Positions 33,310 through 38,086 of a stretch of 42,479 nucleotides of DNA are shown here, in pieces; the stretch's first letter is position 1; every line of letters begins with the position of its first letter. The notes beneath the pieces are model-generated. The model saw only the letters and a list, made by a program, of their open reading frames with translations. It was not told the origin of the DNA and did not search any database. A program made the position numbers and the translations under genes. Source of the DNA: Pseudomonas synxantha (GTDB lineage Bacteria > Pseudomonadota > Gammaproteobacteria > Pseudomonadales > Pseudomonadaceae); the NCBI GenBank assembly GCA_945874835.1, contig CAMCJM010000002.1:1-42479 (forward strand), written 5' to 3'.

Positions 33310-33449
33310 TTCCTTGCGCGTACATGCAGATGTAATCCGAGAACTTTACGCGGGGACAACATCGACCCTGGTTTTATTCGGGTAGTCCCTCTGCTGTAAG
33401 CTGCGAGCCATTCTCCTCACATGCTGACTTTGTTCAGGGATGACCTGTT

Positions 33450-36281
33450 ATGCCCTTAAGCTGGAACGAAATCAAAAGCCGCGCCTTGGCGTTCTCCCGC
33501 GAATGGGCTGACGAAACCAGCGAAGACGCCGAAGCCAAACCGTTCTGGAATGACTTTTTTAATGTCTTTGGCGTGAGTCGTCGCCGGGTGGCCAGCTTTG
33601 AGTCGCGGGTTAAAAAAATTGATGGCAAGGACGGCTACATCGACCTGCTCTGGAAGGGCATGCTGCTGATCGAGCACAAGTCGCGTGGCAAAGACCTCGA
33701 CCGTGCCTACAGCCAAGCGCTGGATTATTTTCCCGGCTTGAAAGAGCGCGAACTGCCTAAGTACCCGATCGTTTCCGACTTCGCGCGTTTCCGTTTGTAT
33801 GACCTCGACGACGGCACGCAGCACGATTTTGCTCTCGCCGATTTGCACAAATACGTGCGCCTGTTCGGCTTTATTTCCGGCTACCAAACCCACGTTATCC
33901 AAGAGCAAGACCCGGTCAATATCAAGGCTGCCGAGCGCATGGGCAAGCGGCACGACCAGTTGCAGGCGGTCGGTTACGACGGCCATCCGCTGGAGTTGTA
34001 TCTGGTGCGCCTGTTGTTTTGTTTGTTTGCCGAAGACACCGGGATTTTCGAGCGTCAGCAGTTGCAGGACTACCTCGAACAGCGCACCAGCGAGGACGGC
34101 AGCGACCTTGGCGATCGCCTCGCCAGCCTGTTCCACAACCTCAACAGCCCGCCCGGCAAACGCCTGAAAAACCTCGACGAACAGTTGGCCGCCTTCCCTT
34201 ATATCAATGGCAAATTGTTTGCCGAGCAACTGCCGCCAGCGGCGTTTGATGCCGCCATGCGGCAGAGTTTGCTCGACTGCTGCGCGCTGGACTGGTCGCG
34301 GATTTCCCCGGCGATTTTTGGCTCGCTGTTTCAGTCGATCATGGACAAGCAGGCGCGACGCAATTTGGGTGCGCACTACACCAGCGAAAAGAACATTCTC
34401 AAGTTGCTCAAACCGTTGTTTCTCGACGAGCTTTGGGCCGAGTTCCACAAGGCCAAAAGCAACCGCAACAAGCTCTTCGAGTTTCACAATAAGCTGCGCA
34501 GCCTGACCTTTCTCGACCCGGCCTGCGGCTGCGGCAATTTTTTGGTAATTACCTACCGTGAGCTGCGCCTGCTGGAGCTGGAGGTGTTGCGCCAGTTGCA
34601 CCTGCAAGCGCAGCAATCGGGCCAGACGGAAAACATCGCCACCCTAGTGCGCCTCGATGTGGACCAGTTCTACGGCATAGAGATCGAGGAGTTCCCCGCG
34701 CAAATCGCCCAAGTGGCCATGTGGCTGATGGATCACCAGATGAACCTGCAAGTGTCACAGGAGTTTGGCCTGTACTTCGCCCGGATTCCCTTGGCCGCCA
34801 CCGCCCATATCGTCTGCGCCAATGCGCTGCAAATGGACTGGAACGATTTAATCGCGGCGCAGGGTTTGAGTTATCTGCTGGGTAATCCACCGTTTGTCGG
34901 AGCCAAGCTGCTGGATGATGGCCAGCGTAGCGATGTCGCGACCGTATTTGCCGGGATCAAAAACGCCGGCCTACTGGATTTTGTCGCCGCTTGGTACGTC
35001 AAGGCTGCTATGTATATGGCCGCTAAGCCGAGCATTCGCTGCGCGTTTGTCTCAACTAACTCGATCAGCCAAGGCGAGCAGGTTGGCGTGCTTTGGAGTT
35101 GGATGCTGGCGCAAGGGGTTAAAATCCATTTTGCCCACCGCACTTTTCAGTGGAACAGCGAGGCACGCGGTAAGGCCGCCGTGCATTGCGTGATCATCGG
35201 TTTTGGCCTGGGCGATGTGGCGGAGAAGTGGCTGTTTGAATACGCCGATATCAAGGGTGAGGCGCAGGCGCTCAAGGCCAGCAATATCAACCCGTATCTT
35301 GTGGATGCTCTGGATCTGACGCTGGATAAACGTAGAACGCCGTTATCCGCTCCTCAGGAGCTAGTGTTCGGCAACATGCCGAACGATGGAGGCCATCTCT
35401 TATTTGATGACGCAGAGAAGGCACTATTTGTCGCTAAAGAACATCAGGCTGACGCCTACATCAAACGCTTCATCGGCTCTGAGGAGTTTATCAATAGCAT
35501 AGACCGCTGGTGTCTCTGGCTTGTTGATGCCCAGCCGACAGCTCTCAAGTCTATGCCCTTGGTTATGGGCAGAGTGGCCAAGGTCAAAGAGTGTCGTCTT
35601 GGTAGTTCAAGAGCGGCGACTCAAAAGTTAGCGGGGACACCTTCGCTGTTTGGCGAGATTCGTCAGCCGCAATCTGACTACATCGCGATCCCTAAGACTT
35701 CATCGGAAAAGCGGGCTTACATCCCGATGGGGCTGGTATCCAAAGACACTATTGCCAGTACGGAAATTTTTACCGTTGCAGACGGTAGTCTCTTCATGCT
35801 CGGTGTTCTTTCTTCCGTGATGCACATGTCGTGGGTACGAGCAGTTTGCGGTCGACTTAAAAGTGATTACCGCTACTCCGCGGGCATCGTCTACAACAAC
35901 TACCCCTGGCCCGACTTGCCCACCCCGCAAGCCGATGCGCCGGCCAGCGCCGAGAGTTTGCGCGCCATTAAACTGCGCGCCGCCATCGAAACCGCCGCCG
36001 AGGCGGTGCTGGCCGCCCGCGCGCAATTTCCCGAGGCGACCTTGGCCGATCTGTACGACCCGCTAAGCATGCCGCCAGCCTTGCTCAAGGCCCATCAAAG
36101 CCTCGATAAAGCGGTAGACGCGGCCTACGGCAAAACCCGCTTCAACAGCGAAGCCGAGCGCGTGGCTTTTCTCTTCGACCTGTACTTGAGCTACAGCCAG
36201 CGCTTGGCGGCCAGTAAGCCAGCCGCTAAAAAGCCTGCAAGGTTGAAGGCGGTAGCGAATGACAGTGAGCTTGCCGTATGA
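33450..36281 (+). CDS. Type IIL (MmeI-like) single-chain restriction endonuclease / adenine-specific DNA methyltransferase
   Basis: Nuclease motif D-X9-EHK (DLLWKGMLLIEHK, residues 65-77); MTase motif I LDPACGCGNFLVITYRELRLLE; motif IV GNPPFVGAKLL; TRD-type RFIGSEEFINSIDRWCLWLVDA; 943 aa, close to MmeI in size. Confidence 0.88.
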   Translation: MPLSWNEIKSRALAFSREWADETSEDAEAKPFWNDFFNVFGVSRRRVASFESRVKKIDGKDGYIDLLWKGMLLIEHKSRGKDLDRAYSQALDYFPGLKERELPKYPIVSDFARFRLYDLDDGTQHDFALADLHKYVRLFGFISGYQTHVIQEQDPVNIKAAERMGKRHDQLQAVGYDGHPLELYLVRLLFCLFAEDTGIFERQQLQDYLEQRTSEDGSDLGDRLASLFHNLNSPPGKRLKNLDEQLAAFPYINGKLFAEQLPPAAFDAAMRQSLLDCCALDWSRISPAIFGSLFQSIMDKQARRNLGAHYTSEKNILKLLKPLFLDELWAEFHKAKSNRNKLFEFHNKLRSLTFLDPACGCGNFLVITYRELRLLELEVLRQLHLQAQQSGQTENIATLVRLDVDQFYGIEIEEFPAQIAQVAMWLMDHQMNLQVSQEFGLYFARIPLAATAHIVCANALQMDWNDLIAAQGLSYLLGNPPFVGAKLLDDGQRSDVATVFAGIKNAGLLDFVAAWYVKAAMYMAAKPSIRCAFVSTNSISQGEQVGVLWSWMLAQGVKIHFAHRTFQWNSEARGKAAVHCVIIGFGLGDVAEKWLFEYADIKGEAQALKASNINPYLVDALDLTLDKRRTPLSAPQELVFGNMPNDGGHLLFDDAEKALFVAKEHQADAYIKRFIGSEEFINSIDRWCLWLVDAQPTALKSMPLVMGRVAKVKECRLGSSRAATQKLAGTPSLFGEIRQPQSDYIAIPKTSSEKRAYIPMGLVSKDTIASTEIFTVADGSLFMLGVLSSVMHMSWVRAVCGRLKSDYRYSAGIVYNNYPWPDLPTPQADAPASAESLRAIKLRAAIETAAEAVLAARAQFPEATLADLYDPLSMPPALLKAHQSLDKAVDAAYGKTRFNSEAERVAFLFDLYLSYSQRLAASKPAAKKPARLKAVANDSELAV

Positions 36282-37924
36282 CCCTGGAAAACCAGCATCT
36301 CGACCGTAAGTCCCTGCGTAAGGTGACCGGCAAAACTGCTAACTGGCAGGAGCTGGCCTCAGATTGCGTCTGTTTCGCCAACAGCGCAGGCGGTCAACTG
36401 TTGATCGGTATCGAAGACGCTAGCGAGCTGCCGCCGGCCGAGCAGCGAATAGAACCGGGGTTGCTGGATATTCTGCGCCGCCGTGTGCAAGAGCTCACGG
36501 TCAACGTTATTGTCGCTCCGCGCTTGGTAACGGCCGAGAACGGCGGCCAGTATGTCGAGCTCACGGTTGCCAAGGCGTTTGGTGTGGCCTCCACCTCCGA
36601 TGGCCGCTATTTCCTACGCGTGGGCGACAGCTGCCAGCCGGTGCTGGGTGATGACGTAATGCGCCTTCTTAACGAGCGCCCTGGCGCGCCTTGGGAAGCG
36701 TTGAGTAACCTGCAGGTGCCCCGCGCAGCTGTCGACGCAGGCAAGCAGGCTGAGTTACTGCAGCGCTTGCGCGCCTCGGATCGGGTCAAGACAAACACTA
36801 AGGAAAAGAGCGATCCCGAGCTGCTCGACCACTACGGCTTGGTCGATGGTGAATGGCTGACCAATCTCGGCGTGCTGATCCTTGGTACCGTCCGTGATCG
36901 TGCCCGCCTCGGCACCGCGCCAATGGTGCAAGCGCTGAAGTACGACGAGCAGGGCGACAAGGTGAATAAGTGGCTGTGGGATGACTACCAGCAGTCGCCT
37001 ATCGAACTGGTGGATGCCATCTGGCGCGAGGTGGCGGATTTTCGCGAAAGCTACGAACTGCCCGACGGCCTCTATCGCCAACATATCCCCGCCTTCGATG
37101 AGCGGGTGGTACGTGAATTGTTGGTGAGTGCTCTGGTACACCGCCCGTATACCCAGCGCGGTGACATCTACCTGAACCTGCACCCAGATCGGCTTGAGGT
37201 GGTAAATCCTGGCCGCCTGCCCTTTGGTGTTACGCCCGGCAATATCCTGCACGCCAGCCGCCGCCGTAATGATCGGATGGCAGCACTTTTCCACGATTTG
37301 AAAATGATGGAGAAGGAAGGTACAGGTTTCGACTTGATGTACGACGTGCAGCTATCCCAGGGCCGTCCCGCCCCTGAGACTAGCGAAGGACCAGATTCAG
37401 TTCGCGTCACTATCAGGCGCCGCATCGTGCGCCCGGAAATGATCGGTTTGTTGAAAACCGTAGATGAGCGCTTCCAGCCCACTCGCCGCGAGCGAATCAC
37501 CCTTGGGCTACTCGCCCAACACGAAGGCATGACCGCCAGCGAGTTGGCATCCGCCCTAGAACTCAGCTCAACCGATGAGCTAAAACCTTGGTTCGGTCGC
37601 CTGCGTGATTGGCAATTGGTGAGTGAAAGTGGGCGCACCAAGGCAACCCGCTATTTCGTCGCACCTGAATGGCTACGTGGCAGCGGTCTTGAGGGAAAAA
37701 CCACCCTTACCCGCATCGAGCCGCATCGGTTGCGCGCGCTGATTTTGGAAGATCTTCAGCGCTATCCTGGCTCATCCTCCAGCGAAATCAACGCGCGCAT
37801 CGGTGGTGAAATCTCTAACCGTACTGTTAAGCGCGCATTGGATGAATTGATTGAGCAGAAGCAGGTTCGCCGCGAGGGTGAGGTGCGCTGGCGACGTTAT
37901 TGGTTAACTGGGCAGGCCAGCTGA
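36278..37924 (+). CDS. AlbA_2 (Schlafen-like) / HATPase_c_4 protein with C-terminal winged helix
   Basis: ASDCVCFANSAGGQLLIGIED (AlbA_2), RELLVSALVHRPYTQRGDIYLNLHPDRLEVVNPGRLPFGVTP...MMEKEGTGFDLMYD (HATPase_c_4); ATGA overlap with the upstream RM gene. Confidence 0.85.
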   Translation: MTLENQHLDRKSLRKVTGKTANWQELASDCVCFANSAGGQLLIGIEDASELPPAEQRIEPGLLDILRRRVQELTVNVIVAPRLVTAENGGQYVELTVAKAFGVASTSDGRYFLRVGDSCQPVLGDDVMRLLNERPGAPWEALSNLQVPRAAVDAGKQAELLQRLRASDRVKTNTKEKSDPELLDHYGLVDGEWLTNLGVLILGTVRDRARLGTAPMVQALKYDEQGDKVNKWLWDDYQQSPIELVDAIWREVADFRESYELPDGLYRQHIPAFDERVVRELLVSALVHRPYTQRGDIYLNLHPDRLEVVNPGRLPFGVTPGNILHASRRRNDRMAALFHDLKMMEKEGTGFDLMYDVQLSQGRPAPETSEGPDSVRVTIRRRIVRPEMIGLLKTVDERFQPTRRERITLGLLAQHEGMTASELASALELSSTDELKPWFGRLRDWQLVSESGRTKATRYFVAPEWLRGSGLEGKTTLTRIEPHRLRALILEDLQRYPGSSSSEINARIGGEISNRTVKRALDELIEQKQVRREGEVRWRRYWLTGQAS

Positions 37925-37936
37925 AACCGAGCAGCT

Positions 37937-37992
37937 CATAAAAGACAAACCTTCGGCAATCCGCTTCACTTCTATCGGCTTTGTCTTTTATG
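37937..37992. repeat. Inverted repeat CATAAAAGACAAA-N30-TTTGTCTTTTATG
   Basis: Perfect 13-bp arms 12 nt after the stop of the AlbA_2 gene. Confidence 0.85.
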
Positions 37993-38086
37993 GCATTCCC
38001 CGGGCCTCGAAGAATATACCTCACGCTAATGGACACGCTTTGATGTATGCGTAGTCATGTCCAATAGACGTTCATCGGAGGTGGAT

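Follow-up and report, generated by a model that had tools for sequence, protein, structure and literature searches.

An MmeI-family restriction-modification gene coupled to a Schlafen-type gene in a Pseudomonas genome: a putative chimeric defence unit with a readable junction

Between znuA and thrB of a Pseudomonas-like MAG (3.3 Mb, 277 contigs, 87% complete) lies a pair of overlapping genes, an MmeI-family restriction-modification gene (gene 1) and a Schlafen-type gene (gene 2), and the joint between them most likely derives from the 3′ end of an hsdS gene. The pair was found in a window of 42,479 nucleotides, the term window denoting here the whole stretch of DNA analysed; its features are collected in Table 1. 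By analogy with known systems, the reading that is somewhat favoured is that of a chimeric two-gene defence unit, in which MmeI would restrict and the Schlafen protein, whose gene would come from a Type I operon, would act as a latent RNase back-up. The pairing and the readable scar are new; the protein family of gene 2 is already known. A sequence-only reading of the window had presented the pair as an under-described module, and this stands for the association with a Type IIL enzyme, which is new to us, but not for the family, which is generally known. In the literature searched, no paper was found in which a Schlafen gene is described next to a Type IIG/IIL enzyme.

Table 1. Features of the gene pair and its insertion site (positions in the window)
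Feature	Position	Strand	Basis
Inserted segment between znuA and thrB	33310..38086	.	znuA-thrB adjacency in same-genus genomes
MmeI-family Type IIL restriction-modification enzyme (gene 1), 943 aa	33450..36281	+	Open ORF, Pfam, PADLOC, 5hr4 alignment
Replaced block relative to G286 homologue, aa 457-825 (MTase C-terminal half and target recognition domain)	34818..35924	+	dS comparison
Putative junction scar: last MmeI codons (SELAV*) matching hsdS 3′ end (..GELAV*), including ATGA overlap	36262..36281	+	L083 DNA identity, HsdS tails
Schlafen-type accessory protein (gene 2), 548 aa (AlbA_2 - GHKL/HATPase_c_4 - winged helices)	36278..37924	+	Open ORF, Pfam, fold
SLFN/AlbA_2 domain, aa 4-121, predicted triad E4, D9, D47	36287..36640	+	Pfam, conservation
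HATPase_c_4 (GHKL-like) match, aa 296-379	37163..37414	+	Pfam
Winged-helix region, aa 402-543	37481..37906	+	HTH matches below cut-off; fold matches
Perfect 12-bp inverted repeat, ATAAAAGACAAA / TTTGTCTTTTAT	37938..37991	.	Between convergent SLFN and thrB stops; sequence read

The locus between znuA and thrB

The two open reading frames overlap by the four nucleotides ATGA at 36278-36281, as had been noted before, and this overlap supports the view that they are likely co-translated. The pair was also thought to be an accessory insertion, znuA and thrB being neighbours in several other pseudomonads. Both points are borne out. The two genes are separated by 4.78 kb in the window and lie no more than 1.5 kb apart in 26 of 29 sampled same-genus genomes; the gap is 19-450 nt in most, and 19 nt in the nearest sampled genome. 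In G1157 and G286, the genomes in which the nearest relative of one or the other gene was found, znuA and polA are ~1.6 and ~1.9 kb apart, which leaves no space for such an insert. The pair is flanked by znuA/zur on one side and thrB/polA on the other. Target-site duplications and att repeats were looked for at the insertion and none were found, and plasmids searched for this insert gave no match. In another Pseudomonas (G026; L227:7033-10036), the space between znuA and thrB is occupied by a different and apparently unrelated 3-kb insert, which indicates that this gap tolerates insertions.

The inverted repeat downstream of gene 2 is likely a bidirectional terminator, with predicted RNA folds of -20.9 and -28.4 kcal/mol on its two strands. 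No hsdR remnant is seen 3′ of gene 2, where 162 nt in all are left before thrB. The same genome has a separate Type I system (L215, contig C54) with the order hsdM-hsdS-unknown-Fic-hsdR and without a Schlafen gene.

The MmeI and Schlafen pair was seen in one MAG only. A contig that falsely joins mmeI to the Schlafen gene would be consistent with an assembly of 277 contigs and 87% completeness, with the absence of the joint from any second genome and with the lack of a plasmid match. However, at the joint mmeI and hsdS have no homology by which an assembler might be misled, the joint keeps the reading frame and lies only a few codons ahead of the stop, and the native znuA and thrB are found on both sides in the expected order. 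An assembly chimera is an extremely improbable explanation.

The two encoded proteins

Enzymes of the MmeI family methylate one strand of their site and cut unmodified DNA ~20 nt away (20/18). In gene 1 the five Pfam domains of MmeI (PF20473, PF20466, PF20467, PF20465 and PF20464) are all matched above cut-off, with E values of 4e-25 to 5e-90, and its alignment with the solved MmeI structure (PDB 5hr4; 1205 bits) runs over the full length. A PADLOC run, suggested by the sequence-only reading, matches gene 1 to its Type IIG model with E=0. The single chain combines a gamma-class adenine MTase, with an NPPF motif around aa 479-482, an MmeI target recognition domain (TRD) and a C-terminal domain. 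At its N-terminus is a PD-(D/E)XK nuclease in which D65 and E75-H-K77 align with D70, E80 and K82 of MmeI, residues whose mutation abolishes cutting (PMC4833311). The nuclease and methyltransferase first noticed in this gene are thus both recognised, and gene 1 is predicted to encode a complete MmeI-family (Type IIL) enzyme. An omega of 0.022 points to purifying selection on its backbone.

Contact residues of gene 1, read against PMC4833311, are R and E at MmeI positions 723 and 738 for a C at site position 1, F/M at 642/645 for an A at position 2, and K/D at 806/808 for a G at position 6; those for positions 3 and 4, K/T and E/R, are ambiguous. The predicted site, offered with low confidence, is approximately CAGNAG, in which the fifth base, an A, would be methylated; C, A, A and G at positions 1, 2, 5 and 6 have the best support.

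Gene 2 matches SLFN_AlbA_2 (PF04326) with E 3e-9 and 37.7 bits, against a curated cut-off of 25.3, and HATPase_c_4 with E 5e-18 and 65 bits, also above the curated cut-off. Both domains had been named from the sequence together with winged helices; the latter are found in the predicted fold, their Pfam matches lying below cut-off (HTH_20, E 3e-5). The structure model has a pLDDT of 85.8, and its top fold match is PDB 3lmm (DIP2311; E 2e-27). Matches to the N-domains of the eukaryotic Schlafens SLFN11-14 are of marginal significance and weak over the whole protein, with a query-normalised TM of ~0.16 that covers the N-domain only.

The acidic triad of the AlbA_2 domain is conserved, with E4 and an acidic residue at position 9 each in 35 of 35 sequences and D47 in 31 of 35. 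In sequence, its spacing of 5 and 38 equals that of E205/E210/D248 in rat SLFN13, residues that are required for tRNA cleavage (PMC5862951). The nucleotide-binding part is altered. The N-box (aa 280-288, just upstream of the HATPase_c_4 match) carries N284S where 34 of 34 relatives have N, the G2-box carries S349T where 34 of 34 have S, and most other departures from conserved residues also fall in aa 284-403. ATP-dependent control may have been altered or lost in this protein. In aa 1-186, the half without the altered residues, an omega of 0.045 (window versus L083, a Type I locus described below) points to purifying selection.

Three roles for gene 2 had been suggested. The first is that of a transcriptional regulator, whose winged helices would set restriction-modification expression in the manner of a C protein. 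The winged-helix matches agree with this, as does the earlier annotation of such proteins as DNA-binding or helicase-like. The case is weakened by the position of gene 2 downstream of the enzyme and by the separate small HTH gene (68 aa) that many Type I relatives have directly upstream of the Schlafen gene; moreover, the acidic triad is conserved though dispensable for DNA binding. A regulator is quite unlikely. Second, gene 2 might place cutting or methylation by MmeI under ATP-dependent control, a role consistent with the translational coupling, with the GHKL-like domain and with the relatedness of the Type I and MmeI MTase-TRD cores (PMC3874165). Yet enzymes of the MmeI family restrict and methylate without any partner (PMC3874165), the N-box Asn is lost, and gene 2 is absent from the other MmeI loci surveyed, so that such a modulator is very unlikely. 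The third suggestion, a second effector, fares best: the conserved triad and the published architecture of BREX back-up RNases (PMC12839542) argue for it by homology.

Origin of the pair

Relatives of gene 2 were collected at 77 loci by a scan of genome contigs and plasmids, most at 55-66% identity. Type I genes lie within 6 kb at 43 of these loci; two others are beside Type III genes, two beside a DUF1156-type methylase/helicase locus and one beside a PglX-like gene. The remaining 29 have no detected restriction-modification gene within 6 kb, several being on short contigs or truncated, and include Rhizobium/Sinorhizobium plasmid copies; linkage to restriction-modification is thus not obligatory. 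Phage records contain only distant partial relatives. A Klebsiella IncC plasmid (L019:6001-6303) carries, near transposases, a piece of the Schlafen gene that covers aa 442-542 at 65% identity.

The sequence-only reading had envisaged a specific module of MmeI-like and AlbA_2 genes that would recur side by side. No MmeI gene is present in the fetched flanks of the gene 2 relatives (0/77), and no AlbA_2 protein at 40 MmeI-like loci, in wide flanks where the contig allowed (0/40; best E 0.12, as against E=6e-268 for gene 2 with the same profile). A recurrent module is not supported by these counts.

The joint itself resembles the Type I arrangement. In Type I loci, an HsdS ending in LLPRLMSGELAV* or ..GEIAV* overlaps the Schlafen gene by the same ATGA; the tails GELAV*, GEIAV* and NGELAV* are found in L043, L084 and L083. 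The last of these loci, from Pseudomonas sp. UBA2684, has the order hsdM-hsdS-SLFN with the same overlap, and a transposon cuts its Schlafen gene short at aa 187. Only aa 1-186 were found in the UBA2684 genome, the rest being lost or unassembled behind the transposon. The window and L083 share 86% DNA identity from 36262 to 36836, where L083 breaks off, and no similarity is detectable upstream of 36262. The identity begins 16 nt before the gene 2 start codon and 13 of these 16 nt match, for which the chance at a fixed position is ~4 in a million by a binomial estimate. The MmeI tail, ..NDSELAV*, has no counterpart in 16 other MmeI proteins (0/16); the closely related G286 enzyme ends ..KKEVRL*. 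Taken together, the L083 identity and the HsdS-like tail indicate that hsdS is the most likely source both of the last MmeI codons and of the coupling overlap.

The gene 2 tree pairs the window with L083 (100/100); both fall in a clade of 14 members, most of which have hsdS upstream. The dS of gene 2 against L083 is 0.70, close to the polA dS of 0.75 between those genomes, a value consistent with an old Schlafen lineage to which MmeI was added later. At another locus (L073:6026-8004), an orphan HsdS tail, ..SGELVT*, precedes a Schlafen gene with other open reading frames in between, and the same joint may have served there for a second exchange.

MmeI has a mosaic history of its own. Compared with the enzyme of G286, another genome of the genus, it is 82% identical overall, ~99% in aa 1-456 and ~98% in aa 826-921, and the block between, which holds the target recognition domain, is very different. 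The dS is 0.13 in the N-terminal backbone, 0.18 in the C-terminal backbone and 2.8 inside the block. Between the same two genomes the polA dS is 1.09 as against 0.13 for the shared backbone, which points to a recent transfer of the backbone between lineages. The G286 gene is coupled by ATGA to a Bro-N gene (L194:6838-7680, minus strand) and occupies another genomic site, next to a gene that we take from its sequence to be cyaA (class I adenylate cyclase). At L203, MmeI overlaps by 4 nt a Shedu-type gene (SduA_C, PF14082). The slot 3′ of MmeI thus holds different genes in different genomes, and it is empty in many others; the Schlafen gene would be one of several exchangeable accessories plugged in there. 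Some distant MmeI-like methyltransferases (34-39% identity; L197, L198, L207, L209, L210, L212 and L213) are followed by a conserved helicase-like gene of 640-690 aa (APPASGKSRALMF) and then a gene of 390-430 aa, and form a separate multi-gene system.

In such a slot the Schlafen gene could be a passenger carried along by chance, with no functional tie to MmeI, acting alone, as its solitary relatives may do, or decaying. The 29 relatives without a detected restriction-modification gene, the Rhizobium/Sinorhizobium plasmid copies among them, are consistent with this, as are the clustering of N284S, S349T and several other departures in aa 284-403 and the single observation of the pairing. On the other hand, the frame, triad and coupling are intact, the exact overlap is preserved at the joint, and omega is low in aa 1-186, though this is not the altered half. 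A passenger is an unlikely alternative.

Proposed working and comparison with known systems

The favoured reading, a chimeric defence unit, can be set out as follows. Gene 2 would have been captured from a Type I operon ordered hsdM-hsdS-SLFN-hsdR, in which the MmeI gene replaced hsdM-hsdS and was joined within the last hsdS codons, so that the ATGA translational coupling was inherited. MmeI restriction would be the first line. The Schlafen protein would be a latent metal-dependent RNase, probably directed against tRNA, kept silent by its own GHKL and winged-helix regions, by touching the MTase-TRD core, or by both. Failed or inhibited restriction would release it, and translation would stop in the infected cell. 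The domains, the conserved triad, the chimeric joint and the context of the relatives are the observations from which we infer an RNase activity, its silencing, its trigger and any contact with MmeI. What makes a link between the two proteins plausible is that the TRD of MmeI can be superimposed on the S subunits of Type I enzymes and that a resemblance to Type I MTases has been proposed for the MmeI dimer (PMC3874165). The single occurrence and N284S/S349T keep our confidence in the proposed function close to one half.

The readable scar suggests that such partners may be re-pluggable between unrelated restriction systems. A broader hypothesis, which is doubtful at present, is that Schlafen-type guards are system-agnostic: a guard docking on an MTase-TRD core could be transferred from a translocating Type I complex to a single-chain Type IIL enzyme without losing its function, because the MmeI core resembles the Type I M-S core, and accessory effectors would form an exchangeable layer apart from the restriction-modification enzyme. 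If the transplanted partner works, back-up effectors would be portable between unrelated restriction systems, and the locus would be a natural experiment on what they sense. As MmeI has no ATP-driven translocase, sensing that requires HsdR would be excluded in this setting. A small single-chain MmeI with one further gene would also provide a simple test bed for the silencing of Schlafen-type RNases, which otherwise has to be addressed in the large complexes of Type I or BREX systems. Even with an inert partner, the readable scar documents accessory gene swapping behind restriction-modification enzymes.

The closest published parallel in architecture is found in BREX, where RNases composed of SLFN, minimal histidine kinase and wHTH domains are proposed as back-up effectors in at least 1017 taxa (PMC12839542). 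Gene 2 has the same domain order, and in both cases a back-up RNase is proposed beside a DNA-targeting defence. It differs in its host, a single-chain Type IIL enzyme without translocase or PglZ, in the replaced GHKL N-box Asn, and in that znuA/zur and thrB/polA rather than a BREX core are its neighbours.

Gene 1 shares with MmeI (PDB 5hr4) all five domains, including the D..ExK nuclease, the NPPF MTase, the TRD and the C-terminal helices. Its contact residues predict another site (C, A and G at positions 1, 2 and 6), and the window adds the ATGA-coupled Schlafen gene and the HsdS-like tail. The solved structure closest to gene 2 by sequence (E 4e-23) as well as by fold is DIP2311, at 22% identity; the entry states neither a function nor a restriction-modification link.

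The gene order of EcoprrI is hsdM-hsdS-prrC-hsdR, and relatives of gene 2 likewise sit between hsdS and hsdR. PrrC is sequestered in EcoprrI (PMC3874165, PMC3710099), and a latent RNase guarding a restriction-modification enzyme is what is proposed for gene 2. PrrC, however, is an ABC-ATPase/HEPN anticodon nuclease with domains unrelated to gene 2, which has no HEPN or ABC ATPase Pfam match and no hsd genes beside it. The likeness between the two would be one of working logic only.
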